NCBI GenBank assembly: GCA_030429045.1 | Contig: JAUIEA010000023.1 | Span: forward strand, 1-36,771 | DNA length: 36,771 nucleotides | DNA from: Bacteroidia bacterium | GTDB lineage: Bacteria > Bacteroidota > Bacteroidia > Chitinophagales > Saprospiraceae | Direction of reading: 5' to 3' | Shown: one piece after another, positions 1 through 26,529 of the stretch | How positions within the stretch are numbered: the first letter of the stretch is position 1 | Layout of the letters: every line of letters starts with the position of its first letter | Notes under the pieces: model-generated | The model's database searches: none | What the model was told of the DNA's origin: nothing | The model's input: the letters and a program-made list of their open reading frames with translations, nothing else | Translations under genes and position numbers: made by a program

Positions 1-193
1 TTGAACTTTAAACGGCCAGACCTCGTAAACGAGTCCCCAGCAACAGGCAACCTGGAACCAGGAATTTCGCCCTATTTGCCTTGTGAAATCACCCGTTCCA
101 GTTCCCTCGTTCGATCAATCCGACAGATGACCGCCATCATTTGAAAAGTGGGGGTTACGGGTGACATTGGCAGTGGACCAAAACCGTCACATC
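1..193. other. Upstream region without a recognised gene
   Basis: No convincing coding frame is visible on either strand. The stretch has two small palindromes, CTCGTAAACGAG at 24-35 and CCTGGAACCAGG at 51-62, and ends in the likely promoter and leader of the coiled-coil gene. A GTG at 161 is in frame with the next gene and is an alternative start. Confidence 0.4.
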
Positions 194-802
194 ATGAACA
201 CACAACTCAAAGACCCTCCAGTCCAGAAAGACCTGACCAGACTGGAGAAAATGCAGGCCTTCTTCGAAGAGCTCGAAGTCCAGATGACTCTGGGCCGGAA
301 TGAATTCCAGGACTTGTGGATGCGGGAAATGAAAGATCTGCGTCGGTTCTTCCACGAGGAAAAAAACCTCCTGCGGGAAGACCAGGAAATGTTCCGGGAC
401 ACCTGGGATCGCGTGATCAAGGCAGTCGATGCCCTGGACACGTCGATGGAAAAGGTGGAAAAGGATATCGACAAGGTCTGGAACAAACAGAAGCCCAACC
501 TGGAGTTGCGGATTTCCGATCTGCGCAAGGAATTGAAAGAGACCGGGGAAGACTTCGGGAATATCTTCGCTGATGCCCTGGATCGGTTCCAGAATCAGAA
601 GAACATTCCTGAGGGTGAATTCCACGATGAACATCCACAGTCGATTGATGATCGTATGGATATTCTGAAAAAGAAGGTCCAGGAATTCCAGCAGGACTTC
701 AAGGAAAAATTGCCGGATGATCAAAAGATCACCGCGTTTAAAACTGAGGTTGGCGAATCCTTCGACAGAATGAAAAAAGCATTCCATGACCTCTTTGCCT
801 GA
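194..802 (+). CDS. Coiled-coil protein of unknown function, cotranscribed with an ABC1-type kinase
   Basis: About 202 residues, almost entirely charged amphipathic helix, with no signal peptide, membrane segment or cysteine. Long heptad-like stretches run from about residue 12 to 135 and 150 to 200, rich in Glu, Lys, Asp, Phe and Met. The composition is like phasins or apolipoprotein-type helices, but I do not recognise a named family. The ATG at 194 was chosen; a GTG at 161 would add 11 residues, and neither has a clear ribosome binding site. The 3' end overlaps the ABC1-kinase start by 17 bases, so the two are probably translated together, and a role at a lipid surface is possible but only inferred. 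The pattern of charged and hydrophobic residues supports a real gene; the long open frame on the opposite strand is its shadow. Confidence 0.75.
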   Translation: MNTQLKDPPVQKDLTRLEKMQAFFEELEVQMTLGRNEFQDLWMREMKDLRRFFHEEKNLLREDQEMFRDTWDRVIKAVDALDTSMEKVEKDIDKVWNKQKPNLELRISDLRKELKETGEDFGNIFADALDRFQNQKNIPEGEFHDEHPQSIDDRMDILKKKVQEFQQDFKEKLPDDQKITAFKTEVGESFDRMKKAFHDLFA

Positions 803-6676: not shown

Positions 6677-7129
6677 GTGAAACGTCTAAACCCTCTCAAA
6701 AAATGTACAGCCATCCTGCTTTCAGGACTGGTTTTGATATCCACTTGGGGCTACTCAGTGGATCAACATTTTTGCCAGGGCAGGCTCATCAACACACGGT
6801 TTTTCAGTGCGGCACCCTCCTGTTCCAGCGAGGCAATGAAAGCCTGTCCAGTTCACCCGGCACCTTCTGAAAGATCCACTTCATCTCAATTTCACAGGCC
6901 GCCCTGTTGTCAGAATTCAGGAGTTTATGTGCATATAGAAATGAATGGCAAGTCAGCATCAGAGACTCTGTCGCTGGCAAAAATGGCACCACCACCTGCT
7001 CCCATTTATGTCAATCTTTCTATCCGGGAGTCGCTGTTTTTATCCCATCTGACCCTGTGGACCAGATGGATGCACCCTCCTCCCCTCCTGCGATCAGATT
7101 GTCGCTGGACCTCTTCCTACCGCTGTTAG
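6677..7129 (+). CDS. HYC_CC_PP-type small Cys/His-rich exported protein
   Basis: 150 residues from a GTG start, with an N-terminal signal-type hydrophobic helix (about 10-25). After it come HFC at 31-33, PPCC near 75-78 and MHPPP at 132-136, matching the pattern for which the Bacteroidota HYC_CC_PP family is named. There are further Cys at 49, 57, 142 and a C-terminal Cys at 150 (ending YRC). The middle is Ser/Pro-rich and low in conservation. It precedes the CusA-like pump on the same strand with a gap of 126 bases, so a role in sensing or binding copper or related metal in the periplasm or outer membrane is likely but unproven. A paralogue at 19623-20069 shares the same motif order and the same YRC ending, which supports this as a real gene. 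Confidence 0.75.
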   Translation: MKRLNPLKKCTAILLSGLVLISTWGYSVDQHFCQGRLINTRFFSAAPSCSSEAMKACPVHPAPSERSTSSQFHRPPCCQNSGVYVHIEMNGKSASETLSLAKMAPPPAPIYVNLSIRESLFLSHLTLWTRWMHPPPLLRSDCRWTSSYRC

Positions 7130-7255: not shown

Positions 7256-10200
7256 ATGTTATCCAGTATCATACGTTTCTTTCTAGAGAACAAGCTCGTC
7301 GCCTGGCTGCTTCTCCTCTTCTTTATCGGATGGGGGATCGTCAATGCACCTTTTGATCTCCCTGTGTTCTGGCTGCCCAAGGACCCCGTGGCTGTGGACG
7401 CCATCCCGGATATCGGCGAAAACCAGCAGATCGTCTTTACCAAATGGATGGGACGTTCGCCGCAAGATGTCGAAGACCAGATCTCCTATCCGCTCACCTC
7501 TTCATTGCTGGGCATCCCCGGTGTCAAGTCGATCCGCAGCAGTTCAATGTTCGGCTTTTCGACCATCTACATTATTTTCCAGGATGACGTAGAGTTCTAT
7601 TGGAGCAGGTCCCGGATCCTAGAGAAGCTCAATTCGCTACCCACCAATTTGCTGCCCGAGGGCGTACAACCAGCCCTGGGTCCCGATGCAACGGCTCTGG
7701 GACAGATCTTCTGGTACACACTTGAAGGGCAGGACTCCCTGGGCAATCCGACCGGTGGATGGGATCTGCATGAATTACGGACCATCCAGAATTTTTACGT
7801 GCGCTATGGATTGACAGTGGCAGAAGGCGTGGCAGAGGTGGCTTCCATTGGTGGCTACGTCAAAGAGTATCAGATCGACGTAGATCCGGAGGCGATGAAA
7901 GCCCATCGCATCACCCTCGATCAGGTGATGGCCGCAGTTCGGGGCAGCAACCTGGACATCGGTGCGCAAACCATGGAGATCAACCTGGCGGAATACTTCG
8001 TCCGTGGACTCGGCTACATCCAGAACATTGAGGACATTGAATATTCTGTCATCACGTCCAATGATAATGTCCCGATATATATCAAGGATATCGCCAGGGT
8101 CAATATCGGACCCGCCACTCGGCGAGGGGCACTTGACAAATCAGGTGCAGAAGCCGTGGGCGGCGTTGTCGTAGCCCGATACGGGGCCAACCCCATGGAA
8201 GTCATTCAAAATGTCAAATCCAGGATCGGTGAACTGGCCCCGGGGCTACCCACCAAGACCTTGGAAGACGGGACTGTGAGCAAGGTCCGCATTGTGCCGT
8301 TTTATGATCGAACACAGTTGATCCAGGAGACCATTGGCACCCTCGAAGAAGCACTGACCCTGGAAGTTCTGATCACCATCATCGTGGTGATCCTCATGTT
8401 ATTCAATCTGAAATTCTCATTGCTGGTCGCGGGTACCCTTCCAGTGGCTGTCCTGATGTGTTTCGTGGCCATGCGACAATTCGGGATAGATGCCAATATC
8501 GTCTCGCTTTCGGGAATCGCCATTGCCATCGGCACCATGGTGGACATGGGCATCGTCCTGACAGAAAGCATGGTCAAAGGGATAAAAGAAGCCCCGCCCG
8601 GAAAACCCTTGCTAACGACCGTGTATGAGGCGACCATGGAAGTTGCGTCCGCTGTGATCACAGCGGTTGCGACCACTATTGTCAGTTTTCTACCCGTCTT
8701 TGCCATGGAAGCCTCCGAAGGGAAATTATTCCGGCCGCTGGCATTCACCAAAACATTTGCCTTGCTGGCTTCCATCGTGATCGCCATCACCATCCTCCCT
8801 GCGATGGCACACAGCCTCTTCTCCTTTCAGCCGCGAAAGGCCCGATGGCAGATGGGCATCAATCTGATCCTGATCATCGGTGGCATCCTGGTGGCCGGTT
8901 TATACAATTTCTGGTTTGGGATGATCATCATCTTTGTCGCCTTGCTCGAATTGATCAGTATATGGGCCTCCGTTCGATTCTCTAAAGACACGATCAAGGC
9001 TGTTCAATGGGGTAAAAATATCGTGTACAGCCTTCTGGTGACCTTTTTTCTCACCAGGGCCTGGATGCCACTAGGGGTAGAAGCCAGCCTCTTGACCAAC
9101 CTCCTGTTTGTTGTGGCCATCATCGGTTCATTGATGGCGTTGTTCTTCACCTTGATCCACTTCTACGAAAAGATCCTCCTGTTTATCCTGCGGATCAGAT
9201 GGGTTTTCCTGGCCCTGGTCACCGGATTGGTCATTTGGGGGTTTTCCATTTTCAAACACACCGGACAGGAATTTATGCCCGCCCTGAATGAAGGGTCATT
9301 TCTGTTCATGCCGACGTCCATGCCACATACAGGTATGCAGCAAAATCTGAATTATTTGCGCACGCTGGACATGGCGGTGACGGCCATCCCTGAAGTCGAA
9401 TTGGTGGTGGGCAAACTGGGTCGGGTAGAGAGTCCGCTGGACCCTGCCCCGGTCTCCATGTACGAAAATCTGATCCAGTATAAATCTGAATACAAGACTG
9501 ATGAAAATGGACATCGTCAGCGGTTCAAAGTGAATCGTTCAGGTGATTATGTTCTGGATAAAAACGGAGATCACATTCCGGACTCCAATGGCAAATATGT
9601 CCGTCAATGGCGCGACCATATCCACTCACCTGACGACATCTGGAAAGAGGTCCTGCAAGTGAGCTCTCTGCCCGGTGTCACCTCTGCACCCAAGCTGCAA
9701 CCGATCGAAACGCGGCTGGTGATGTTACAGACAGGGATGAGAGCCCCGATGGGCATTAAGGTCAAGGGGCCGGACCTGGCCAGTATTGAAGCGTTTGGCC
9801 TTCAGCTCGAAGATATCCTCAAAGAAGTCGATGGCGTCAAAGCCTCGGCCGTATTTGCAGATCGTATCGTTGGCAAACCATATCTGGAATTTGATATCGA
9901 CCGGAAGGCACTGGCCCGATACGGGTTGACCATCGAGCAGGTACAACGCTATATCCAGGCCGGGGTGGGTGGCATGACGATGACGACCACCGTAGAAGGT
10001 CGCGAGCGTTATCCGGTCCGCATCCGATATCCCCGTGAGCTGCGGTCCGATCCGGACATCGTCGAGCGCATCCTCATTCCGGTGAAGTCGGGAGGACAGA
10101 TCCCTCTGGGTGAACTGGTGACCACCCAGTACCGCCAGGGCCCTCAGGCCATCAAGAGCGAGGACAGTTTCCTGATCGGTTATGTCCTCTTTGACCGGGA

Positions 10201-10963
10201 TCAGGATCAGGCAGAAGTAACCGTCGTCGAAAATGCACAAAAGCATATCCAGGACAAGATCCAGGCGGGAGAACTGATCGTCCCTCCAGGAATCAGCTAT
10301 CGATTTGCCGGCACATATGAACAACAGGTTCGTGCCAGTAAAAAACTGGGCGTCGTTCTACCGATCGCCCTGGGCATTATTTTCCTGATCCTGTATTTTC
10401 AATTCCGGTCAGTGGCCATCACCTCCATGGTTTTCACCGGCGTGTTCATCGCATTTTCTGGTGGATTTATCATGCTCTGGCTGTACGGGCAACCCTGGTT
10501 TATGGATGTGGATATCCTCGGTACCAATATTCGCGATTTCATGCAAATGAAAACCATCAACCTCAGTGTAGCGGTCTGGGTCGGGTTCATAGCACTTTTT
10601 GGCATCGCAACAGATGATGGTGTCCTGGTGGCCACCTTTCTGAAAGACAGTTTCAAAAGCAATCAACCCACCACGAATGCAGAGATCCGTCAAGCTGTAG
10701 TAGAAGGGGGCTTGCGGCGGGTTCGCCCGGCCATGATGACCACAGCAACCACACTACTGGCCTTACTACCTGTCCTGTCCAGTACCGGCAGAGGGGCAGA
10801 TGTGATGGTCCCCATGGCCATCCCTTCATTTGGAGGTATGGCATTACAGGTACTGACCATGTTCACAGTCCCTGTCCTTTTCTGTATGTGGAAGGAGGGT
10901 CAGCTCGCCTGGAAAAATAAGTTTGGAAACGAAAATGAGAGCTCCGATGAGATCATTCTATAA
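7256..10963 (+). CDS. cusA: CusA/CzcA-family RND heavy-metal efflux pump
   Basis: 1235 residues; an inner-membrane proton-driven pump moving Cu+/Ag+ or divalent metals out through a TolC-like channel. The heavy-metal RND signature is present: VPFYDRTQLI at 347-356, the TM4 segment GIAIAIGTMVD with Asp430, and FMPALNEG after TM7. The porter region is Met-rich (LFMPTSMP, MLQTGMRAPMG), which favours monovalent copper/silver over zinc. It is about 190 residues longer than E. coli CusA because of two inserts: about 525-640 with extra membrane helices between TM6 and TM7, and about 742-790, a charged segment with DENG and DKNGD turns. Similar inserts occur in Bacteroidota homologues as I recall them. 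The start follows a 126-base gap after the HYC_CC_PP gene and the end overlaps the next gene. Confidence 0.95.
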   Translation: MLSSIIRFFLENKLVAWLLLLFFIGWGIVNAPFDLPVFWLPKDPVAVDAIPDIGENQQIVFTKWMGRSPQDVEDQISYPLTSSLLGIPGVKSIRSSSMFGFSTIYIIFQDDVEFYWSRSRILEKLNSLPTNLLPEGVQPALGPDATALGQIFWYTLEGQDSLGNPTGGWDLHELRTIQNFYVRYGLTVAEGVAEVASIGGYVKEYQIDVDPEAMKAHRITLDQVMAAVRGSNLDIGAQTMEINLAEYFVRGLGYIQNIEDIEYSVITSNDNVPIYIKDIARVNIGPATRRGALDKSGAEAVGGVVVARYGANPMEVIQNVKSRIGELAPGLPTKTLEDGTVSKVRIVPFYDRTQLIQETIGTLEEALTLEVLITIIVVILMLFNLKFSLLVAGTLPVAVLMCFVAMRQFGIDANIVSLSGIAIAIGTMVDMGIVLTESMVKGIKEAPPGKPLLTTVYEATMEVASAVITAVATTIVSFLPVFAMEASEGKLFRPLAFTKTFALLASIVIAITILPAMAHSLFSFQPRKARWQMGINLILIIGGILVAGLYNFWFGMIIIFVALLELISIWASVRFSKDTIKAVQWGKNIVYSLLVTFFLTRAWMPLGVEASLLTNLLFVVAIIGSLMALFFTLIHFYEKILLFILRIRWVFLALVTGLVIWGFSIFKHTGQEFMPALNEGSFLFMPTSMPHTGMQQNLNYLRTLDMAVTAIPEVELVVGKLGRVESPLDPAPVSMYENLIQYKSEYKTDENGHRQRFKVNRSGDYVLDKNGDHIPDSNGKYVRQWRDHIHSPDDIWKEVLQVSSLPGVTSAPKLQPIETRLVMLQTGMRAPMGIKVKGPDLASIEAFGLQLEDILKEVDGVKASAVFADRIVGKPYLEFDIDRKALARYGLTIEQVQRYIQAGVGGMTMTTTVEGRERYPVRIRYPRELRSDPDIVERILIPVKSGGQIPLGELVTTQYRQGPQAIKSEDSFLIGYVLFDRDQDQAEVTVVENAQKHIQDKIQAGELIVPPGISYRFAGTYEQQVRASKKLGVVLPIALGIIFLILYFQFRSVAITSMVFTGVFIAFSGGFIMLWLYGQPWFMDVDILGTNIRDFMQMKTINLSVAVWVGFIALFGIATDDGVLVATFLKDSFKSNQPTTNAEIRQAVVEGGLRRVRPAMMTTATTLLALLPVLSSTGRGADVMVPMAIPSFGGMALQVLTMFTVPVLFCMWKEGQLAWKNKFGNENESSDEIIL

Positions 10964-12212
10964 TTACATCCTGACAGGCTTCTTGTTGTGTCTGTTCAGC
11001 TTATCCGGTTCGGCGCAACCTCTTGCCGAATTGCTGGCTGCATCGGATAGTGCCAATCTCGAGCTGCAAGCCCTGTATCACGAATACCTTGCAGCACGTG
11101 AACGGGGGCCTCAGGTCAGTCAGTTACCCGAACCCGAGGTTGGATTGGGGCTGTTTGTCCTGCCAGTCGAAACCCGGCTTGGGCCCCAATGGGTACGGTT
11201 GAGTGCCTCGCAGATGTTCCCCTGGACAGGCACCCTCCAAGCTCGGGAAGATGTGGCGATTGCTATGGCATCTGTTCGGTATGAGCGTATTGCAGCGACG
11301 AGGCTTCTGCTTCATGATCGAATCCGTAAGGCCTATATCCGCCTCCAGGAACTGGACAGGAAACAGGTCATCATTCAAGAGAATATGCGGCTCACAAAGG
11401 AACTGGAAAACATTATCACCACGCGGGTAGAAACGGGACGGGCCAGTCTGGCTGACCTCCTCCGCATTCAGGTCAGAATCCGGGGATTGGAAGAGGAACT
11501 GCACCTGCTTGAAAATCTGAAACGCATCCCACAGGCATCGATCAATCAGGCCCTGAATCGAAATGTAGACCTGTCTGTTGTCCCGAAGGACTCGCTTGTT
11601 CTGGCCCATCTCAATCATGATCGGGATCCACTGTTTGCAGCCATTCGAGATGAACACCCCAACCTTCGCATACTGGCATTACAACAGGAAGTCTCCCAAA
11701 AGAAGATCGAACTCAATGCATTGGAAGGCAAACCTTCACTGACTGCAGGGATTGACTATATCGCTGTTGGCAACCGCAGCGACGCCCAACCCGCAGGAAA
11801 TGGACGGGATATTCTTTCCCCGAGGATCGGGATTCGGATACCGATCTACCGGGACAAATACCGGGCAAAAGCGCAGGAAGAAAAATGGACCATTCAAGCC
11901 CTGGAATACCGGAAGGAAGATCAGTTCCTGGAATATCAGAAAGAGGTAGCGCAGGCTTACGCCGATTATGAAGATGGCCGTATCCGGCATGCACTGGCCA
12001 GGGAACAGCAAACCATCATTCGATCGGCCATCGAGCTGCAAATGACCACCTACAGCACCAATGGAGCAGGCTTCCTGGATTTACTCCAAATGGAAGATCA
12101 GCTCCTCCAATATGACCTCCAGATGCTATCTGCCATGGTAAAAACTCAGATGGCCATGGCGCAACTCCAAAAAATCATTCCTCAATCAGAACGACCCGAT
12201 CATGGAGAATAG
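10935..12212 (+). CDS. TolC-like outer-membrane efflux protein (CusC role)
   Basis: About 425 residues. A signal peptide (cleavage near GSAQ, about residue 28) is followed by two long helical TolC-type repeats (outer membrane efflux protein family), the usual length for this class. Helical hairpins such as LEHKQ-like and LTKELENIITTRVETG segments and the YRDKYRAKAQEEKW region fit the periplasmic tunnel. The gene begins within the last codons of cusA: ATG at 10935 or 10947 would both give a good signal peptide, and a start at 10923 is also possible. It overlaps the adaptor gene by 11 bases, so pump, channel and adaptor are translated as one unit. Metal specificity is inferred from the neighbours. 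Confidence 0.9.
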   Translation: MRAPMRSFYNYILTGFLLCLFSLSGSAQPLAELLAASDSANLELQALYHEYLAARERGPQVSQLPEPEVGLGLFVLPVETRLGPQWVRLSASQMFPWTGTLQAREDVAIAMASVRYERIAATRLLLHDRIRKAYIRLQELDRKQVIIQENMRLTKELENIITTRVETGRASLADLLRIQVRIRGLEEELHLLENLKRIPQASINQALNRNVDLSVVPKDSLVLAHLNHDRDPLFAAIRDEHPNLRILALQQEVSQKKIELNALEGKPSLTAGIDYIAVGNRSDAQPAGNGRDILSPRIGIRIPIYRDKYRAKAQEEKWTIQALEYRKEDQFLEYQKEVAQAYADYEDGRIRHALAREQQTIIRSAIELQMTTYSTNGAGFLDLLQMEDQLLQYDLQMLSAMVKTQMAMAQLQKIIPQSERPDHGE

Positions 12213-13953
12213 AACAATCATTATTCTGATAAGCCTTGCTGCAGTCCTTGGTCTTTGTGCCGGGTATATGTTATTTGGTGGATCTGCTTGGGATACTGTA
12301 CCTGACTCAAAAGAAAATAACCAGCAAGTTGAGACCGAAAGTGAGATATGGACCTGCTCCATGCACCCGTCTGTTCGTCAACCGGAACCGGGACAATGCC
12401 CGATCTGTGGTATGGATCTCATTCCGTTACAACAGGGGACATCCGCCGGCGATCCCCTGGTATTGGAAATGACCCCGGAAGCCGTAGCACTGGCCAATAT
12501 CCAAACCCTGGTGGTCGGTCAGCAAGGTGAGCAAAAGGCTGGTACCATCATCCTCTCTGGTAAGATTAAAGCTGATGAACGACGCATTGCCACTCAAGTC
12601 GCACATGTGCCGGGGCGTATCGAAAAGCTGTATGTCACCTATGCCGGCGAATCCGTTCGAAAGGGCCAAAAAATGGCCACTGTATATTCTCCGGAATTGG
12701 TGAATGCACAACGTGAACTTCTGGAAGCGATCAAATGGAATAAAACAAAACCACAGCTGGCAGAAGCGGCACGAAACAAATTGCGGTATTGGAAAATAGA
12801 TGACGTTACGATTCGGAATATCGAAGTTACAGGGAAGGTGCAAACATCCATAACCCTTTATGCAGACCAGGGGGGCATCGTGTCAAATCGCCATATTGCT
12901 GCTGGAGATTATATCCAGGAAGGAGAGGCATTATTTGACCTGGTGGACCTCAGTCGGCTCTGGGTCCTTTTTGATGCCTATGAAGAAGATCTGGGCAAGA
13001 TCCGCATGGGAGATCAGGTCGCGTTTACCGTACCCGCGAATCCGGGCAAAACCTATCAAGCCAGGATCTCCTTTATAGACCCGGTTATTGATCCGCAAAC
13101 CAGAATAGCCACTCTGCGTGCAGAACTGGCAAATTCTTCTGGTTTGTTTAAACCCGAGATGTTTGTACGAGGCACCCTGACCAGTAGATCGGCCCAAAAA
13201 ACAAATCAGTTTGCCATTCCAAAAACCGCAGTGTTGTGGACAGGAAAGCGGTCTGTAGTCTATGTCCAGGAGCCAGATATGGACATCCCTTCCTTCTCGT
13301 TCAGAGAGATCACTCTGGGTGAGTCCGAAGGTGATCACTACCAGGTAGTAGACGGATTGGAAGGCGGCGATCGCATTGTGGTGAATGGTGCTTTTGTCAT
13401 TGACGCTGCTGCCCAACTGAACAATATGAACAGTATGATGAACCGGCAGGTTCGATTGAAAGAAACGAAAAGGTCATCCTCTCTCCCCGACTACACAGCC
13501 TCGACTCCTGCACGGTTCAAACAACAACTCGGCCTGGTCGCCGATGCCTATCTCCAGTTGAAAGAGGCACTAGTGGCTTCATCACAGCAAAAGGCCTCCA
13601 GGTCTGCGGATCAATTGATCCGGGACTTGTCCAAAGTGGATATGTCACTGGTCAAGGGCGAGGCTCATCTCTACTGGATGGATCAGGCCAATGCCATGCG
13701 TTCACACAGTAACCTGATCGCGAAAGGGGATCTGGAAAAACAACGCGAGCAATTCCGATTTCTATCCGATGCACTGATCCAAACACTGAAGGTATTTGGT
13801 ATTTCAGAGCACACCTATTACATCCAACATTGTCCTATGGCCAACAACAACAAAGGTGCCAGCTGGATCAGCTTAAACCATGTTATCCAGAACCCCTATT
13901 ACGGCGACAAGATGTTGACCTGTGGAGCAGTCATCGATAGTCTGGAAGATTAA
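12202..13953 (+). CDS. cusB: CusB-like membrane fusion protein with N-terminal heavy-metal-binding domain and C-terminal DUF3347
   Basis: 583 residues. An N-terminal membrane helix (about 5-25) leads to a heavy-metal-binding domain with WTCSMHP at 50-56 and CPICGMDL at 66-73. The adaptor body follows, with the lipoyl/barrel-sandwich half around HVPGRIEKLYVTYAGESVRKG (split lipoyl motif) and a beta-barrel to about 400. The last 150 residues match the DUF3347 type, ending in IQHCPMANNNKGASW and NPYYGDKMLTCG. The protein links CusA to the TolC-like channel and probably hands Cu+ to the pump through its Cys/Met/His sites. It closes the operon; stop at 13953. Confidence 0.93.
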   Translation: MENRTIIILISLAAVLGLCAGYMLFGGSAWDTVPDSKENNQQVETESEIWTCSMHPSVRQPEPGQCPICGMDLIPLQQGTSAGDPLVLEMTPEAVALANIQTLVVGQQGEQKAGTIILSGKIKADERRIATQVAHVPGRIEKLYVTYAGESVRKGQKMATVYSPELVNAQRELLEAIKWNKTKPQLAEAARNKLRYWKIDDVTIRNIEVTGKVQTSITLYADQGGIVSNRHIAAGDYIQEGEALFDLVDLSRLWVLFDAYEEDLGKIRMGDQVAFTVPANPGKTYQARISFIDPVIDPQTRIATLRAELANSSGLFKPEMFVRGTLTSRSAQKTNQFAIPKTAVLWTGKRSVVYVQEPDMDIPSFSFREITLGESEGDHYQVVDGLEGGDRIVVNGAFVIDAAAQLNNMNSMMNRQVRLKETKRSSSLPDYTASTPARFKQQLGLVADAYLQLKEALVASSQQKASRSADQLIRDLSKVDMSLVKGEAHLYWMDQANAMRSHSNLIAKGDLEKQREQFRFLSDALIQTLKVFGISEHTYYIQHCPMANNNKGASWISLNHVIQNPYYGDKMLTCGAVIDSLED

Positions 13954-14201: not shown

Positions 14202-16382
14202 ATGCAACGTTGCTTACTCTTATTTACGTTATTACTCCTCACATCTATAAGCCTTTCTGCCCAAACGCTCTATATGGAGGATTTTGAAGCAGGCACCCAA
14301 CCTACAGGTTGGACCATTACTTCGAATGCATCCGATGACGGTTGGCGTTTTGGTACAGCTGGATCCTTATCCAGTATTGACTTCGCCATCACCCCGAATG
14401 GGACTAACGGTATTGCGGCCACCAATGATGATGCCTGCAATTGCGACAAAGAGATGGACATCCTGATCAGTCCTCCTTTTGACCTCTCATCCGTAACGGC
14501 CGTCACCTTGCAATTTGACCTCTTTTTTGGCGCCGAATCGTATAATGGGATCACTGAAACCGGCATGGTCCATGCCTCTGTGGATGGCATCTCCTGGGAT
14601 CTGCTGGACGACCTGCACGGACATAGTGAATGGGATTCCCACACCATCGACCTGACCAATTACGCAGGAGAGAAAATGGTGTATATCCGTTTCACATACA
14701 GCGATGGAGGCGACTGGTTGTATGGCATGGCCATTGACAATGTGGCACTGGTCGTCCCCCCTGCCCTGGATGCCCGCATGGACCATATCGATATGTATCG
14801 GGTCGGTGAAACAGATGTACCCATTGGCATTACCGGCCATCTTTTCAATGCCGGATCCACCCCGATCACTTCATTTGAAATTGCCTATTCCCTGAATGGC
14901 ACGCTTGCCGGTTCAGAGGTCATCGATAATATGACCATTCCGGCCTTCACGTCAGGTGCATTTGCTTTAACCAGCCCCTGGATTCCCGATGCTTCCGGAG
15001 ATTATACCGTATCCATCGACGTTGTCGCCGTCAATGGCGAAATGGATGAGGACCAGACCAACAATGCCCTGGAATACGATATTGAGATCTTCGAAAAAGT
15101 CACCCCACCAAACCTGATCGATGACTATCTGGTAGCTGACCCGATCTTTCATGCACTCCCCGAGGCTTCCAAAGACCTGGACAAACCCAATGATCTGGAT
15201 TTCTTTCCGATCCTGGGCAAGGATGAATTGTGGATCGTCAACGAACGCAATGAAAGCAGTGGGGGTAGTACGCTCACAATCAACAATGCAACATCAGAAA
15301 ATCCGACTTACCTCCACCGCGTCGACGGCAATGCCTGGCACTTCATGTCTATCCCAACCGGGATCGCATTTGGTAACAATCTGAATTTCGCCACCTCGCC
15401 GGGTGTCAAGGATGCCAATCACAGCAATGGCACCTTTACCGGGCCGACATTGTGGTCCAGCGATCCGGACATCTATGCCAAGCCATCCGGTGGGAATGGC
15501 AGTCACCTGGATATGCTCCACGGCAGTCCGTTCAGCATGGGCATCGCCCATGAGATTGATAATGTCTATTGGGTCTTTGACAGCTGGAACCAAACCATTG
15601 TCCGTTATGATTTCCAAGAAGATCACGGACCCGGAAATGATTACCATGGTGATGCACTGGTCAGAAGATACCTGGAAATCACTGTCAACAGGGATGGAGA
15701 CGTTCCCAGTCACATGGTATTAGACAAATCAACCGGTTGGTTATACATTGTCGACAATGGCAACAACCGCGTCTTGCGCCTGGACATTCATTCAGGAAAC
15801 GTGGTCGGGGACATTCCGCTGATCAACGAACCCCTTGCAGAACATTCTGAAATGGGCAATGTGACCTGGGAGGTCATTATTCAGGATAGCATCGACCGCC
15901 CTTGTGGAATTGAGATCATGGAAGACCGTCTGCTCGTCGGAGACTATGCATCAGGCGACATATATGTGTATGACATCAATGACTTTCAGGAACTGGGTCG
16001 CATTTCCACTGGATCGGAGGGTTTGACAGGGCTGAAAATTGGCCCCAATGGCCATATCTGGTATACCAATAAACTGGAAAATACGGTCACCCATATTGAA
16101 CCGGGAATGGTCAGTGGCATCAGCGACAATGCGCTTGCGGCCAGGGTCAACCTGTCACCCATCCCGACAAAAAACACCCTGTTTGTCGATCTCACGGATC
16201 TGTCCTTGAATGGCGAGGCTACGATTCACATTCTGGATGCCGCAGGGAAAGAAGTGTTGTCGACCCGGATGCAAGGCGATCAAAAGGAACTTCAACTAGG
16301 CCATCTTGCAGATGGAACCTATTGGTTGAGAATTCAAAAAGAGGGTCATCAAATGACCAGAAAAATAGTCCTCACAAAATAA
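14202..16382 (+). CDS. Secreted multidomain protein with beta-propeller and T9SS sorting domain
   Basis: 726 residues. The ATG at 14202 was chosen because it gives a clean signal peptide (MQRCLLLFTL to SLSAQ, residue 21); the frame stays open upstream to an ATG at 14043. After the signal comes a jelly-roll of the MAM/choice-of-anchor J type (about 22-185, EDFEAG, ISPPFDLS, DNVAL), then an Ig-like CARDB-type domain (about 188-305, DEDQTNNALE), then an NHL-like propeller (about 320-640, with repeated LYIVDNGNNRVLRLD and GPNGHIWYTN blades). The last about 75 residues are a T9SS type A sorting domain ending in MTRKIVLTK. Ligand and function are unknown. It sits between the cus operon and a convergent di-heme gene. 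Confidence 0.88.
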   Translation: MQRCLLLFTLLLLTSISLSAQTLYMEDFEAGTQPTGWTITSNASDDGWRFGTAGSLSSIDFAITPNGTNGIAATNDDACNCDKEMDILISPPFDLSSVTAVTLQFDLFFGAESYNGITETGMVHASVDGISWDLLDDLHGHSEWDSHTIDLTNYAGEKMVYIRFTYSDGGDWLYGMAIDNVALVVPPALDARMDHIDMYRVGETDVPIGITGHLFNAGSTPITSFEIAYSLNGTLAGSEVIDNMTIPAFTSGAFALTSPWIPDASGDYTVSIDVVAVNGEMDEDQTNNALEYDIEIFEKVTPPNLIDDYLVADPIFHALPEASKDLDKPNDLDFFPILGKDELWIVNERNESSGGSTLTINNATSENPTYLHRVDGNAWHFMSIPTGIAFGNNLNFATSPGVKDANHSNGTFTGPTLWSSDPDIYAKPSGGNGSHLDMLHGSPFSMGIAHEIDNVYWVFDSWNQTIVRYDFQEDHGPGNDYHGDALVRRYLEITVNRDGDVPSHMVLDKSTGWLYIVDNGNNRVLRLDIHSGNVVGDIPLINEPLAEHSEMGNVTWEVIIQDSIDRPCGIEIMEDRLLVGDYASGDIYVYDINDFQELGRISTGSEGLTGLKIGPNGHIWYTNKLENTVTHIEPGMVSGISDNALAARVNLSPIPTKNTLFVDLTDLSLNGEATIHILDAAGKEVLSTRMQGDQKELQLGHLADGTYWLRIQKEGHQMTRKIVLTK

Positions 16383-16449: not shown

Positions 16450-17526
16450 CTAATTCGGATCACTGTAGGCCGGATTGGTCAAAAATGTCTCATCCGTCAG
16501 GGTATGAAGGAATGCGATAATATCCGACTTCTCCTGTGCGGTCAATCCCAAGCCGCCGGGTTGAATATTATACTGCATTAAAAATTCAACCGTCGATGAA
16601 TTTTTGGCACCCGTATTATAATGGTCCATTACTTCTTCCAGGGTGGCAAAACGACCATCGTGCATATACGGTGGCGTTTTGGCAATATTCCGCAGGCTGG
16701 GCACCTTGAACTTGGCCCGGTCAAATGCATTCATCGTTACCATTTCTCGACCCGTATCCGTAAACTCCGCATCTGTATCCAGGCCATTATTCATAAATTC
16801 ATCATTGGTGAAATTATGCCCTGCATGACAATGGAAACATTCGGCACCACGTCCGGAACCTGTGGGATCAAATTCTGCAAAAAAGAGTTTCCGTCCGTTT
16901 TCCTCTTCCGGCGTCAAGGTCACCTCCCCTTTTAACCATTTATCGTACTTGGCGTCTTTCGATACCAGGGTAAACATAAATTGCTCCATGGCCAGTCCCA
17001 TACGCTCGGGCGTGATCTCATCATCACCAAATGCGCGGATAAACTGATCCCGGTAGGCCTGATTGGCTACCAGTTTGGCGATCGCCCCGTCCAGGGTCTC
17101 ATTCATTTCTAACGGATCCTGGATGGGTTTCAAGGCCTGATCCCGCACAAGCGGTGCACGACCATCCCAAAACATGCCATTGTAATGCCAGGCGACGTTC
17201 ATCACCGGCATGGCCTGGCGCTTTCCATCCAGTCCTTCCACGCCGACACTGAACCGACGAATATCCGAAAAGGCGTCCACCTGCAAGTGGCAATCGGCAC
17301 AGGATTGGGAACGGTCACGTGACAGGTCTTTCTCATAAAAAAGCATTCGGCCCAATTCTACACCGGATACGGTGAGGGGATTATCCATGGGTAATACCGG
17401 ATCAGGAAAATCACCGATATCCAGGGTATAGGGCGTTGGATCATAGACGGCCGGATCCACCGGGTCCGGCTTGCAACTGCAGATTGCCATCATCGGGACA
17501 ACCAGGATCAAATAGATATTTTTCAT
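16450..17526 (-). CDS. Di-heme cytochrome c peroxidase/MauG-family protein (lipoprotein)
   Basis: 358 residues with an export signal and an early Cys (near 16-18) suggesting a lipoprotein. Two c-type heme sites, CADCH at 76-80 and CFHCH at 230-234, define the bacterial di-heme peroxidase/MauG superfamily. The inter-heme Trp region is intact (GMFWDGRAP at 117-125), as is FKVPSLRN at 273-280 with PYMHDGRF at 286-293 and DHYN. Family members reduce peroxide or use it to oxidise residues in a partner protein, in the periplasm. It is the last gene of an operon with an MbnP-like protein and a second di-heme protein, 6 bases after the latter. Either peroxidase or partner-modifying activity is possible. 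Confidence 0.92.
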   Translation of the reverse strand: MKNIYLILVVPMMAICSCKPDPVDPAVYDPTPYTLDIGDFPDPVLPMDNPLTVSGVELGRMLFYEKDLSRDRSQSCADCHLQVDAFSDIRRFSVGVEGLDGKRQAMPVMNVAWHYNGMFWDGRAPLVRDQALKPIQDPLEMNETLDGAIAKLVANQAYRDQFIRAFGDDEITPERMGLAMEQFMFTLVSKDAKYDKWLKGEVTLTPEEENGRKLFFAEFDPTGSGRGAECFHCHAGHNFTNDEFMNNGLDTDAEFTDTGREMVTMNAFDRAKFKVPSLRNIAKTPPYMHDGRFATLEEVMDHYNTGAKNSSTVEFLMQYNIQPGGLGLTAQEKSDIIAFLHTLTDETFLTNPAYSDPN

Positions 17527-17532
17527 GTTGAA

Positions 17533-18549
17533 TTATTCTTGATGAAGGATCGGATTTTGCAGAAACGCCTCATCTGTCAGACTTTTTAGAAAGTTGATCA
17601 GATCATCTGTCTCTCTATCCGTTAACTGAAATGTCCGCAACAACGGACTTTTATTCGGGTGGTCCTGAATGCCATGCTGGTAGTGCAAAACCACTTCACG
17701 AAGATCTTTCAAACTGCCATCATGCATATAGGGTGCCGTGACTTCCACGTTTCTCAAACTGGGCACCTTGAACACGGCCCGATCAGATTCGATACCTGTC
17801 AGACGATAGCGCCCGGGATCAGCATACTCCTCGTAAAGACCATTATTCGCAAAAGACTGGTCCGTAAAAAGAAAACCGGAATGACAGGACGCACAACCCA
17901 GTCGATCACTCTGGAACAGATCCAGCCCACGGATGGCACTGGGCGACAGCGCTTTCCAGTCACCCTGATAGGACCACTGGTCAAATCTGGAATTTCCACT
18001 GATCAACGTCCGCTCAAAGGCCGCTATGGCCCGGGTGATCACAAAGGGATCGGGCGTTCGGCCATAGGCTCGTTCAGCCAGGTCCCTGTAGCGTGGAACT
18101 TCCCCGACCTTTTTGGCCACGTCCAGAATATTCGTCGCAAATTCATGGTGCTCCTGGATGGGTACCAGGACCTGCATTTCCAGGGTCGGCACGCCCCCTT
18201 CCCGCAAGAGCGCCACCTGGTAGCCGACATTGGCCAGAGAAGGTGAATTGCGCGTACCCACCCGATCCTCGACACCCAGGCTGAAGGCCAGGGTATCTGA
18301 AAAGGCATAGGCCGGGATGTGACAGGATGCACATGAACGGGAACTATCGACCGAGAGGATCGGATCGAAGAACAGGGCTTTCCCTAACTCCACACGTTCA
18401 GCCAGAAAGGCATTGTCAGCAGGAATGACCATCTCCGAAAATCCTGGAGGGGTCTCATACCTGTCCAGTTCAGGCAACTCTAGCTTGGAGCAGGATCCCA
18501 GGATCAAGCCGAGAAGAAGACAAACAACCGATCTGCGGACGATGGCCAT
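17533..18549 (-). CDS. MauG/MbnH-like di-heme protein coupled to the MbnP-like gene
   Basis: 338 residues, lipoprotein signal with lipobox LGSC (Cys20). Heme sites are CASCH at 73-77 and CASCH at 219-223. The C-terminal heme region is typical (FKVPSLRN, PYMHDGS, LHYQHG). Unlike the other two di-heme proteins in the window, the FWDGRA segment is replaced by LLREGGVPTLEMQ (about 114-126), so the conserved Trp expected near the two hemes is missing. The ATG shares its A with the TAA stop of the MbnP-like gene (TAATG), the tightest coupling in the operon, which makes this the best candidate for the enzyme acting on that protein. In methanotrophs MbnH oxidises a Trp of MbnP to kynurenine; transfer of that role here is inference. 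Confidence 0.9.
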   Translation of the reverse strand: MAIVRRSVVCLLLGLILGSCSKLELPELDRYETPPGFSEMVIPADNAFLAERVELGKALFFDPILSVDSSRSCASCHIPAYAFSDTLAFSLGVEDRVGTRNSPSLANVGYQVALLREGGVPTLEMQVLVPIQEHHEFATNILDVAKKVGEVPRYRDLAERAYGRTPDPFVITRAIAAFERTLISGNSRFDQWSYQGDWKALSPSAIRGLDLFQSDRLGCASCHSGFLFTDQSFANNGLYEEYADPGRYRLTGIESDRAVFKVPSLRNVEVTAPYMHDGSLKDLREVVLHYQHGIQDHPNKSPLLRTFQLTDRETDDLINFLKSLTDEAFLQNPILHQE

Positions 18550-19544
18550 TACTGCACCACAAAGGAGCTCCGGGCGATCAGGCGACCATGCTGGAAGAGA
18601 CCATAGAAATAGGTGCCCGCCTGCCAGCCCTGAAGATCCAGTTGGATCTGACCCTGAGCCGGTACATTTTGCCGGAAGGCGACCATCTGTCCCATGACAT
18701 TCATCACTTTCAGATCAACAGCCTGGATAGCCGGATCCAGATCCTGGGCCAGGGAGATCTGTCCCCGAGCCGGATTGGGTGTACCCGTCAACGACAAGGA
18801 GTTCCGGGCTACATCATCTTGAGCAGACAGGGCCGAGATGGTCAGGAAATCCTCCGTAGAGGCATTGGTCAGCATCTTCTGATTCTGTGAATTGCTGCCG
18901 TGATGGATCAGGTTGCCGATCATGGTCATCCCTTCAAACAATTTGGCATAATCCACATCCAGGTTGACGGTCAGCACGCCATTATCCGCCGTTACATCTC
19001 CATCGATGGCCGTGGTAAAATAGAGGTTGTCTCCCAGGTTGTGGTATTGAAAAAGGGACTCGGGAACCCCGTCATTATTATTGTCGACATAGCCTTCAAT
19101 GGCCATAAACCGGTAGCCTGCAGACCAGCCCCAGTGCATGGAGGGGTCCTGGAAACCCAGGGGATGACCCAACTGGTAGGTGGAGGGGTCCAGGTGGTTT
19201 TTTGCCTGGTCCACACCAATATGCACTTCCACACCCTCAATTTCATCCAGGTTCACATTACCGATATTCCAGACCACTTCCGGTTCGCTGGCATCCGCCA
19301 GGATATACTGATCGTTGAGAGTAGTCTTTCCACCGCCGACGCCGATCAGGGAGATCTCTGCCAGATAGAATTCTGCCCTGTCGATCTGCATGGTCTTCCC
19401 ATTCCAGATCGTAAAGAGTGTTTCATTGACCTTCAGCTCATCCCCATTGACCTTATGGTTGAATTTGAACTGAACTTCGTTGGTTTGGGCACCCAACATC
19501 AGGGCACCGGAAAAGAAAAATAGAAGAAGCGTAAACTGTTTCAT
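18549..19544 (-). CDS. MbnP-like metal-binding protein fused to a T9SS sorting domain
   Basis: 331 residues. Signal peptide to about residue 19 (LMLGAQ), then an MbnP-type domain (about 23-240): FKFNHKVNG, the IDRAEFYLAEISLIG strand typical of the family, HPLGF, the MHWGWSAGYRFMAIEG core with Trp138 and Trp140, FQYHNLGDN, and NLIHHGSN near 211-218. A T9SS type A sorting domain fills about 253-331 (TPNPARGQISL ... RLIARSSFVVQ). MbnP proteins bind copper after an MbnH enzyme converts a Trp to kynurenine. Here two di-heme genes follow in the same operon, one sharing a base with this stop. The sorting domain implies export through the outer membrane, possibly to surface attachment. Copper binding and Trp modification are not shown by sequence alone. 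Confidence 0.85.
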   Translation of the reverse strand: MKQFTLLLFFFSGALMLGAQTNEVQFKFNHKVNGDELKVNETLFTIWNGKTMQIDRAEFYLAEISLIGVGGGKTTLNDQYILADASEPEVVWNIGNVNLDEIEGVEVHIGVDQAKNHLDPSTYQLGHPLGFQDPSMHWGWSAGYRFMAIEGYVDNNNDGVPESLFQYHNLGDNLYFTTAIDGDVTADNGVLTVNLDVDYAKLFEGMTMIGNLIHHGSNSQNQKMLTNASTEDFLTISALSAQDDVARNSLSLTGTPNPARGQISLAQDLDPAIQAVDLKVMNVMGQMVAFRQNVPAQGQIQLDLQGWQAGTYFYGLFQHGRLIARSSFVVQ

Positions 19545-19563
19545 ATCCTGTTGATTAACACGT

Positions 19564-19573
19564 GAAAAAAGTA
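19564..19573 (-). promoter_or_regulatory. Possible -7 box of the MbnP operon
   Basis: On the minus strand TACTTTTTTC resembles TAnnTTTG and lies 19 bases before the MbnP-like ATG. It suggests a promoter inside the 78-base gap after the HYC_CC_PP gene. Confidence 0.35.
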
Positions 19574-19580
19574 AAGCGCC

Positions 19581-19600
19581 GATATCTCTGAACAGATATC
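19581..19600. promoter_or_regulatory. Perfect inverted repeat, candidate operator
   Basis: GATATCT, a 6-base spacer and AGATATC form a perfect inverted repeat just upstream of the putative -7 box of the MbnP operon, a usual place for a repressor site. A second small palindrome, GTTAGC-GT-GCTAAC (19614-19627), overlaps the stop of the HYC_CC_PP gene. Confidence 0.45.
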
Positions 19601-19622
19601 CGGTAGGAAACAGGTTAGCGTG

Positions 19623-20069
19623 CTAACAGCGATATTGACAAAACCGGGCCTGGGGATCCCACAGACAGGGTGGAGGATGCGCCCTGGGGGTGATCGAGGT
19701 TTCGTTCGCATCGGCCTGCCCGGTCAGGAGCATCTCAACTGACGATGGCAGGGTGCTTATTTTCGTTGGACCAGATGCAGCCACAATCTCCTGCTTGACG
19801 ATCTGCTGGATATCCAGATGCTGATAATGCACCCGATCCTGGCAGCATGGCACTCGCCGAACGGTGGTGATCCGTGTTTTTTTCAATTTGCAGCAGGTGC
19901 CGAGCGCCCGCTTGGGCTTGATCTTCAGAATACTGCAACAGGAGACCGCAGAACCATACAACCCCACCAGGCGGCCTTTGACCCGGCAATCATGGACCTG
20001 GCCTGACACGCCTGTACTGGAGACCAGTATCAGGACAGCAAGGAACAAAGAAGTGACGGGTTTAAGCAT
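19623..20069 (-). CDS. Second HYC_CC_PP-type small Cys/His-rich exported protein
   Basis: 148 residues. The frame stays open further upstream, but the ATG at 20069 gives a good signal peptide (cleavage near GVSGQ, residue 24). Motifs follow the family order: VHDC at 25-28, CC pairs at 44-45, 59-60 and 75-76 (PCCQD), and HPPP at 131-134. Two more Cys occur at 144 and 148; like its paralogue at 6677-7129 it ends in YRC. It is the first gene of the minus-strand group that continues with the MbnP-like protein and two di-heme proteins, after a 78-base gap. A metal-related periplasmic role is inferred from having one paralogue beside a Cus pump and one beside MbnP. Confidence 0.75.
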   Translation of the reverse strand: MLKPVTSLFLAVLILVSSTGVSGQVHDCRVKGRLVGLYGSAVSCCSILKIKPKRALGTCCKLKKTRITTVRRVPCCQDRVHYQHLDIQQIVKQEIVAASGPTKISTLPSSVEMLLTGQADANETSITPRAHPPPCLWDPQARFCQYRC

Positions 20070-25227: not shown

Positions 25228-25266
25228 GAATTTTGAATTTGGTCCTTATTTGTGAATTGGAATTTC
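25228..25266 (+). repeat. GAATTTTGAATTTGG-type intergenic repeat fragment
   Basis: GAATTTTGAATTTGG, CTTATTTGTGAATTGG and AATTTC recur in the same order as in 5366-5424. It fills the short gap between the convergent stops at 25179 and 25266. No hairpin terminator is visible there. Confidence 0.5.
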
Positions 25267-26444: not shown

Positions 26445-26529
26445 GATCGCGATCAATTAGTCGACAGGGTGCTACTCAATGATTGGACGGATTGAATGGA
26501 GGAAGGTTGAATTCTGGATCGAAATAATG

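Follow-up and report, generated by a model that had tools for sequence, protein, structure and literature searches.

An operon for an MbnP protein with a T9SS sorting domain and two di-heme enzymes recurs in Bacteroidota, often beside copper-export genes, and seems to be a new form of an established copper system

The window analysed here is the whole of a 36,771-nucleotide contig from a Bacteroidia bacterium of the Saprospiraceae (JAUIEA010000023.1, assembly GCA_030429045.1). Within 16450-20069 a sequence-only reading had placed four minus-strand genes, and all were located with the families claimed: a HYC_CC_PP-like, cysteine-rich exported protein (19623..20069, 148 aa), an MbnP with a T9SS type A sorting domain (18549..19544, 331 aa), and two di-heme CCP_MauG proteins, each with a lipobox cysteine, termed DHa (17533..18549, 338 aa) and DHb (16450..17526, 358 aa). 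The tight packing described earlier is also seen in the sequence, with the MbnP stop and the DHa start having one base in common (TAATG) and 6 bases separating DHa from DHb. The same window holds features absent from that reading. A second HYC_CC_PP protein (6677..7129, plus strand; NF047658 45.9 bits, cut-off 28) directly precedes a plus-strand heavy-metal RND pump of the CusA/CusC/CusB type (7256..13953) with CusA-like (7256-10963; TIGR00914 767 bits), CusC-like outer membrane (10956-12212; OEP) and CusB-like (12202-13953; HlyD_D23 and HMBD) components. The window also has a third di-heme gene, at 25266-26456. A 726-aa T9SS cargo protein, a possible associate, is encoded on the plus strand at 14202..16382, its gene converging on the MbnP operon; among 74 loci, 6 have a homolog of it scoring at least 100 bits no further than about 6 kb from MbnP. 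A consensus promoter scan found 5 sites with 3.9 expected, terminator-like sites numbered 8 with 3.6 expected, and no operator common to the window's two HYC promoters was found, their similarity being no higher than that of shuffles.

The MbnP protein matched PF20243 at 102.8 bits (cut-off 27) over residues 21-208 (18921..19484, minus strand). Its sorting domain, which makes up the rest of the protein from residue 256 onwards (18552..18779, minus strand), exceeded the cut-offs of both Por_Secre_tail (PF18962; 34.3 bits, cut-off 27; residues 256-316) and TIGR04183 (26.3 bits, cut-off 23), and the genome encodes SprA (2301 bits), the one part of the T9SS translocon that we searched for. A structural model (pLDDT 85.6) bears out the earlier assignment of an MbnP-like domain, aligning over 20..239 with the solved MbnP 7l6g in VIA-align (Z 17.8, r.m.s.d. 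2.8 Å, 204 residues aligned); as modelled, the protein shares the MbnP fold. The other VIA-align matches listed lay on the C-terminal part of the model. In Foldseek, MbnP chains of 7l6g took the six top places (first E 5.5e-8), with modest TM-scores of 0.39-0.49 and r.m.s.d. of 5.9-7.9 for the whole model including the tail. Searched against the PDB, the single MbnP sequence gave no match, a profile of T9SS-type MbnPs alone reached 7l6g at E 1.4 only, and a profile from 12 other MbnPs failed to retrieve 7l6g. The protein also missed the equivalog cut-off of TIGR04052 MbnP_like_WxW (41.2 versus 140 bits), contains no cysteine and hence no four-Cys motif of the kind named in the 7l6g title, and found no match in a plasmid search.

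The MHWGW motif (residues 136-140; 19125..19139, minus strand) places a Trp pair at 138 and 140, to which the sequence-only reading had drawn attention. Trp138 is the first Trp of the WxW, which we take to be the residue turned into kynurenine in Methylosinus MbnP, where a methionine is a copper ligand. Among 74 MbnPs the Trp at this position proved conserved, being present in all 27 proteins of the T9SS type, a set chosen by an M-H/Y-W-G-W motif that contains it, and in 41 of the 47 others. A count of Trp138 and Trp140 in 82/82 loci from genome_contigs was not taken as evidence of conservation because one search pattern contained MHWGW. His168 (19041..19043, minus strand) was found in 68/68 MbnPs with Trp138 and in 1/6 without it. 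Position 215 (His in the window; 18900..18902, minus strand) is His or Met in 65/68 and 0/6, respectively; it is His in 27/27 of the T9SS type, Met in some other MbnPs, and an alignment gap with a Met close by in Methylocystis parvus. The three positions are largely retained or lost jointly, a co-loss that rests on few events because five of the six Trp138-less proteins look like a single group of tandem paralogs. This pattern, together with His215 throughout the T9SS type, leads us to predict a Cu(I) site of two histidines and one kynurenine, as in MopE and CorA. Met136 was considered as a copper ligand and is unsupported, being retained in 4/6 MbnPs without Trp138; His137, examined as a possible hallmark of T9SS-type proteins, is not exclusive to them and was found in 10/47 other MbnPs.

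Both di-heme proteins have two CxxCH heme motifs (at 73 and 219 in DHa) and match CCP_MauG (PF03150, cut-off 25.6) at 164.1 bits for DHa and 173.9 bits for DHb. Both fall below the equivalog cut-offs for MbnH (TIGR04039, 362.85; 273.1 and 235.7 bits) and MauG (TIGR03791, 443.85; 210.4 and 190.7 bits). In the PDB, bacterial CCPs rank highest for DHa and MbnH 6e1c ranks highest for DHb (E 2.7e-50). In a tree that left aside second-tier DHa-like proteins (366-442 bits), members from such operons form separate DHa (support 100/99) and DHb (98/93) clades. A MauG-type tyrosine, Tyr290 of DHa, aligns with MauG position 294, stands in every alignment row (24, 16 and 9) and is the predicted axial ligand of a six-coordinate heme in both enzymes; the peroxidatic-pocket residues Gln, Pro and Glu are retained by both in nearly all rows. 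The two differ at the position that holds the inter-heme Trp in MauG and bacterial CCPs, a difference that the sequence-only reading had overlooked. Here the alignment gives Arg116 in DHa (18202..18204, minus strand; Arg in 22/24 and 65/66 DHa), whereas DHb keeps Trp120 (Trp in 16/16 and 55/55 DHb). A search of 61 genomes of the family gave 13 DHa matches of at least 500 bits, every one adjoining a T9SS-type MbnP; the Arg/Lys inter-heme type as such is not confined to T9SS operons, because the second-tier proteins adjoin other MbnPs. The residue before Trp138 in MbnP pairs with the inter-heme residue of the neighbouring enzyme (28/3/5/25).

A survey of the phylum, queried with the MbnP domain alone because T9SS tails match many proteins, found the MbnP-DHa-DHb set to be recurrent across Bacteroidota. 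Both di-heme genes are present in 41/59 loci with enough sequence, and a HYC_CC_PP gene lies directly upstream of MbnP in 17/70 T9SS-type loci, compared with 1/41 for other MbnPs. With the fold match, the conserved Trp and this recurrent neighbourhood all found, the earlier interpretation is supported overall. In the stretch covered, two loci (L052 and L058) carry DHa but lack DHb, and no di-heme gene accompanies another T9SS MbnP of the window's genome (C87). One locus (L062) reads HYC-CusA-CusC-CusB-AraC-MbnP-DHa-DHb on one strand, with a TonB-dependent receptor near the operon; another (L186) reads HYC-MbnP-DHa-DHb...HYC-CusA, also on one strand; and Lewinella cohaerens DSM 23179 (L188), a named strain with the arrangement, has CusC-CusA-HYC divergent from MbnP-DHa-DHb. 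A copper or heavy-metal gene, HYC_CC_PP included, occurs in 40/80 loci, the covered stretch of the other half containing no copper gene, and only 9/44 have Cus genes within about 6 kb. Linkage was taken from a protein search, since a TIGR00914 search at E 1e-150 left out the CusA of the window itself, a protein to which this model aligns in fragments. In three genomes (G000, G015 and G029) a window-type CusA and a T9SS-type MbnP stand on one contig less than 15 kb apart, and a weaker CusA (46% identity) is linked likewise in G002. The recurring Cus, HMA and P-type ATPase genes near MbnP suggest that the operon is part of a copper response.

The protein encoded upstream of MbnP is labelled HYC_CC_PP-like because its NF047658 score, 27.2 bits, is marginally below the cut-off. 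A profile of 17 relatives, from which this protein was left out, scores it at 50.2 bits (E 6.3e-14, 4070 ORFs) and scores a divergent relative, encoded upstream of MbnP in L104, at 27.9 bits, the next match having an E of 0.62. Residues H26, C28, C44, C75, C76 and P134 of the window's MbnP-linked protein are invariant in a 19-row alignment; the structure prediction (pLDDT 62.7) was too weak for a fold search. As to the suggestion that this protein is a new part of the system, the family is mainly a companion of CusA, which it precedes in 14/20 loci fetched; a shared component of the copper response therefore describes it better than a new component of the maturation machinery. With CusA as the commonest partner in those loci, a role as a specific maturation factor is not favoured. 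A literature search set outside the main MbnH/MbnP papers found no mention of HYC_CC_PP or of "metallo-mystery pair".

We consider it somewhat probable, taking the explanation as a whole, that the operon, as part of a response to copper excess, produces a copper protein for the cell surface whose Trp138 is oxidised by one or both di-heme enzymes. MbnP would be exported to the periplasm, one or both of the membrane-anchored di-heme enzymes would turn Trp138 into kynurenine with peroxide or oxygen, and T9SS would then take the matured protein onto the outside of the cell. There MbnP, one of its Trp residues altered by heme enzymes, would probably bind copper, with kynurenine, His168 and His215 as the likely holders of Cu(I). 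DHb is the more likely tryptophan oxidase, having retained the inter-heme Trp and being closer to MbnH; DHa, with Arg between the hemes and a strict form found only beside T9SS-type MbnP, may carry out a second, specialised step. The operon would act in the copper response together with HYC_CC_PP and the Cus-type pumps, and its most likely use would therefore be binding excess copper outside the cell. This explanation is slightly weakened by the second-tier DHa-like proteins and by the profile searches that failed for 7l6g. An extended form, which we think quite unlikely, has DHb making kynurenine of Trp138 and DHa performing a second oxidation (of Trp140, or a link to the conserved His137), to give a cofactor beyond plain kynurenine that T9SS sends to the surface across Bacteroidota.

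A variant compatible with the preferred explanation, and differing from it in the division of labour alone, is that only DHb modifies MbnP, DHa being a redox partner or docking factor devoid of oxygenase activity. The inter-heme Trp that DHa lacks is reported as necessary in MauG in the available part of PMC6405878, but the same source describes BthA of Burkholderia, with Ser at this place, as still forming bis-Fe(IV), and the loci with DHa and no DHb in the stretch covered also speak against the variant, which we rate as somewhat unlikely. The direction of the copper response could instead be reversed, with the matured surface MbnP gathering scarce Cu(I) when switched on by copper shortage, as proposed for MopE of Methylococcus capsulatus and CorA of Methylomicrobium album. 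In the available excerpts these are surface or secreted Cu(I) binders that use two histidines and one kynurenine, are copper-repressed and are co-transcribed with a di-heme protein (SACCP or CorB); the predicted T9SS-type site is of the same kind, and the TonB-dependent receptor of L062 would fit. The recurrent metal-related neighbours are, however, of the export or chaperone type (Cus, P-type ATPases, HMA proteins and HYC_CC_PP), and we infer copper excess rather than shortage, making acquisition unlikely. Very improbable in our judgement is that DHa and DHb are ordinary peroxidases acting on peroxide under copper stress, with MbnP an unmodified copper or redox protein exported alongside. The conserved peroxidatic pocket and the CCP matches of DHa agree with such a role, but the axial-type Tyr at MauG 294 in every row, the tie of strict DHa to T9SS-type MbnP and the pairing of the residue before Trp138 with the inter-heme residue all argue against it.

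If the preferred explanation holds, this operon would take protein-derived kynurenine copper sites beyond the methanotrophs, into a group of environmental Bacteroidota, and would connect such sites with copper export, with secretion by the T9SS and with a Cys-rich family that is uncharacterised. The operon also offers natural variants for the role of the inter-heme Trp in MauG-type enzymes, lost in DHa and kept in DHb within one operon, and for the ligands that make a kynurenine Cu(I) site, His/Met as against His/His.

The closest known system is methanotroph MbnP/MbnH (7l6g, 6e1c; PF20243, TIGR04052, TIGR04039), with which the window operon shares the modelled MbnP fold, a WxW with a conserved first Trp, an adjacent di-heme enzyme with the MauG-type Tyr and a copper-linked neighbourhood. 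It differs in its T9SS tail, in having two di-heme enzymes, one without the inter-heme Trp, in His at 215, in the absence of Cys as against a four-Cys motif, and in scoring below the equivalog cut-offs. Oxidatively matured surface copper binders are already known in methanotrophs as MopE and CorA, which have a site like the one predicted here and a co-transcribed di-heme protein; no T9SS tail is mentioned for them in the excerpts available, and they are copper-repressed, whereas the metal-related neighbours here are export genes. MopE and CorA were not among the matches listed in three PDB searches with MbnP profiles, in Foldseek or in VIA-align, and MbnP is described as not markedly similar to them in the part of PMC3621798 available. 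BthA is like DHa a di-heme CCP_MauG protein with an axial Tyr and no inter-heme Trp, but has Ser where DHa has Arg, and the available part of PMC6405878 mentions no MbnP substrate for it. Cus-type efflux with HYC_CC_PP, the commonest setting of that family in the loci fetched and present in the window itself, forms a separate operon, and before MbnP stands another HYC_CC_PP-like gene.

The four same-strand genes that the sequence-only reading had described between window positions 16450 and 20069, encoding an HYC_CC_PP-like protein, an MbnP with a T9SS tail and the two di-heme proteins DHa and DHb, were borne out by gene calls and lie on the minus strand, and the one-base MbnP/DHa overlap and 6-base DHa/DHb gap that it had claimed are both present in the sequence. 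Family searches placed the MbnP clearly in PF20243, with a T9SS tail, and both DHa and DHb clearly in CCP_MauG; both enzymes carry a lipobox Cys (by pattern), and SprA of the T9SS is present in the window's genome. The HYC_CC_PP-like gene scored 27.2 bits, narrowly below the NCBIfam cut-off of 28, and 50.2 bits with a profile from 17 relatives that excluded the gene itself. A second HYC_CC_PP in the window (45.9 bits) lies immediately 5' of a CusA/CusC/CusB-type pump. Between the HYC_CC_PP-like gene and MbnP (19545-19622), an imperfect inverted repeat, GATATCT...AGATATC, was spotted by eye and could be an operator or attenuator. Convergent with the operon, at 14202-16382 on the plus strand, is a gene for a 726-residue T9SS cargo protein, which may be a further member of the copper set; homologs scoring at least 100 bits lie about 6 kb or less from MbnP in 6/74 loci, and one is directly upstream of it at locus L132 (2328-4511).

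An AlphaFold2 model of the window MbnP, built from 15 relatives (pLDDT 85.6, pTM 0.66), supports a structural match to MbnP, which the same reading had named as a check. VIA-align matched it to 7l6g, the solved Methylosinus MbnP, with a Z of 17.8 (rmsd 2.8, 204 residues), and the runner-up entry (Z 9.6) was confined to the tail of the model. The top six PDB matches in a structure search were the six chains of 7l6g (best E 5.5e-8), with TM-scores of only 0.39-0.49 computed over the whole model including the tail. The link is weaker by sequence than by structure model. A PDB search with the single window sequence gave no match; profile A2, a mixture of T9SS-type and other MbnPs, reached 7l6g at E 2.7e-4, profile A3 (T9SS type) at E 1.4 only, and the search with profile A5 (12 other MbnPs) did not return it. 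The A2 alignment pairs MHWGW with MAWNW of 7l6g, and His168 with VHVG.

In Methylosinus MbnP the first Trp of WxW is reportedly converted to kynurenine, and the copper ligands are said to include His and Met. We aligned 74 MbnPs, comprising the best search matches and fetched stretches rather than a random draw. His168 is His in 68/68 proteins with Trp138, and 65 of these 68 carry either His (49) or Met (16) at position 215. Among the six proteins without Trp138, His168 is kept in one and His/Met215 in none, and Met136 is retained in four and His127 in all six. Given this pattern of retention and loss, Trp138, His168 and residue 215 appear to behave as one site, probably with few independent losses behind it, because five of the six Trp138-less proteins resemble one group of tandem paralogs. 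The sixth is the T9SS-tailed MbnP of genome G021 (locus L066), which has also lost residue 215 but retains His168. Its fetched stretch contains no gene labelled as di-heme, and the genome gave no DHa match at E 1e-95. The T9SS-type MbnPs in the alignment all carry His215 (27/27), as do 82/82 MbnPs in loci from a genome-contig scan (best 80 of 387 relatives), which, with Trp138 and His168 co-conserved, predicts a site of two His and kynurenine for this type.

Tandem MbnP pairs were seen in the window's own genome (G000:C248; L008 1445-3068, plus strand) and at L037, L050, L051 and L063. One copy in such pairs lacks Trp138, His168 and residue 215, all three, and these copies are apparently copper-dead paralogs retained beside a live one. 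The same genome holds a second T9SS-type MbnP on contig C87 (G000:C87:21742-22296; L006 7386-8360, minus strand) with MHWGW, His168 and His215 intact; no di-heme gene was labelled in the surrounding 9.6 kb, and maturation of this protein may fall to the window's di-heme enzymes acting in trans.

PF20243 MbnPs occur in 59 of the 61 genomes sampled from the window's family, and those of the T9SS type make up a distinct subset (15 matches of at least 258 bits in 13/61 genomes; next match 156 bits). DHa gave 13 matches of at least 500 bits in 12/61 genomes, every one adjoining a T9SS-type MbnP; the two such MbnPs without it are the orphan C87 copy and a G003 copy located roughly 200 bases short of the end of its contig. 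Second-tier DHa-like proteins (366-442 bits) in these genomes often adjoin second-tier MbnPs, and DHa-like enzymes are thus not limited to T9SS operons. Across the phylum, T9SS-type matches of at least 152 bits were found in at least 13/395 genomes from six families, a lower bound because at most seven candidates were scored per genome. The genome-contig scan yielded 387 relatives, the best 80 of which were studied (57 clusters at 60% identity); Lewinella cohaerens DSM 23179 is among them, and many of the others are MAGs labelled Saprospiraceae, Lewinellaceae, Chitinophagales or Flavobacteriales. The neighbourhood recurs in other genomes, as had been anticipated: in those of the 80 loci with enough sequence, DHa lies downstream of MbnP in 54/64, DHb in 47/59 and both in 41/59. 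Where both are present in the best 80, the order is DHa-DHb in 46 cases and DHb-DHa in 7. One locus titled as a Poseidoniaceae archaeon MAG (L187) has an MbnP-DHa-DHb layout like that of the Flavobacteriales locus L184, and its contig is therefore probably misbinned.

The most unexpected feature is the presence of two dedicated enzymes, one with an inter-heme Trp and the other with Arg. When 50 di-heme proteins from the studied loci, second-tier DHa-like proteins being left out, were placed in a maximum-likelihood tree, they included a DHa clade (24 members, support 100/99) and a DHb clade (16 members, 98/93), all from operons with a T9SS-type MbnP. Outside both fell nine partners of other MbnPs and, on a long branch, the window's third CCP_MauG-type di-heme gene (25266-26456, minus strand), for which no adjoining MbnP was found. 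The inter-heme position, ten residues N-terminal of a conserved Gln, is Trp in 16/16 DHb and 8/9 of the others and Arg in 22/24 DHa; 80 further loci gave Trp in 55/55 DHb and Arg in 65/66 DHa. An axial-type Tyr is present in every row of the first alignment (24 DHa, 16 DHb, 9 others) and in all DHa and DHb rows of the further loci bar one gapped; in those further loci the pocket Gln, Pro and Glu are retained except in two rows. Tyr290 of DHa aligned to MauG residue 294, the Tyr for which PMC6405878 considers a substitution by His. According to the same source, MauG needs its inter-heme Trp for bis-Fe(IV) stabilization and TTQ formation, and BthA, which like DHa lacks this Trp but has Ser where DHa has Arg, still forms bis-Fe(IV), so the Arg alone would not imply an inactive DHa.

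A di-heme gene lies just downstream of 62 of the 74 aligned MbnPs, and the residue before Trp138 correlates with the inter-heme residue of the neighbouring di-heme protein. With one gapped row dropped, His was paired with non-Trp in 28 cases and with Trp in 3, and other residues with Trp in 25 and with non-Trp in 5 (Fisher p 4e-9, relatedness ignored), which supports the suggestion that enzyme and MbnP substrate evolve as pairs. One run in genome G168 (L082/L104) reads MbnP-lipoprotein, DHb, MbnP-T9SS, DHa; every MbnP here is paired with a di-heme enzyme of its own, a hint that DHb originally served a lipoprotein MbnP.

HYC_CC_PP gave 58 match rows in the family search, and CusA is the next gene in 14 of the 20 places fetched, mainly the strongest. 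Among the best 80 loci, HYC_CC_PP stands directly upstream (same strand, within 700 bases) of a T9SS-type MbnP in 17/70 loci with enough sequence (14/53 clusters); it does so for other MbnPs in 1/41 with enough sequence, a single case that is the mixed operon L095/L104, also holding a T9SS-type MbnP. Present in 33/80 loci, it is the commonest clustered family after MbnP and the di-heme proteins. With a single representative scanned per non-Cus cluster, the same 80 loci contained HMA proteins in 9, CusB in 8, AraC regulators with a Cys-pair N-terminus in 6, and HMA-bearing P-type ATPases and HMA-MauE fusions in 5 each. Cus genes lie about 6 kb or nearer in 9/44 loci, and a copper or heavy-metal gene of some kind, counted partly by the GMTCxxC motif that we take to mark such genes, was found in 40/80, 26/80 without HYC_CC_PP, these being raw counts with no matched control. 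The link is most evident at L062, which reads HYC-CusA-CusC-CusB-AraC-MbnP-DHa-DHb on one strand, at L186, where HYC-MbnP-DHa-DHb is followed on the same strand by two genes assigned by cluster as AraC-type and HMA-MauE-type and then by HYC-CusA, and at L188 and L179, where CusC-CusA-HYC is divergent from MbnP-DHa-DHb. The window's closest relatives (L128, L129) conserve HYC-MbnP-DHa-DHb with a CusB gene near. HMA-MauE fusions such as that of L198 (1738-2478, plus strand) lie near the MbnP operon, and besides the 5/80 there is one at L057 (10134-10853, minus strand). MauE is otherwise a helper in methylamine dehydrogenase maturation, like MauG.

Taken together, these comparisons support a reading in which the operon product would be a copper protein matured by oxidation, exported through the T9SS and encoded in a copper-response context. 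Export genes among its neighbours favour a role in copper excess over acquisition, but MopE and CorA, methanotroph copper proteins with kynurenine, operate in copper shortage, so that acquisition may be the role here too.

The combination of a T9SS-type MbnP, two di-heme enzymes and HYC_CC_PP was not found in the literature searched, outside which the primary MbnH/MbnP papers lay. Already known are the MbnP/MbnH pair, described in 2013 (PMC3621798) as conserved far beyond methanobactin producers, and the surface kynurenine copper sites of MopE and CorA. The MopE site is reported to comprise His132, His203 and Kyn130 (PMC3423442) and CorA has the same two-His-plus-kynurenine arrangement (PMC3912023); the set reported for these two proteins is the one predicted for the T9SS-type MbnP from its conserved residues.
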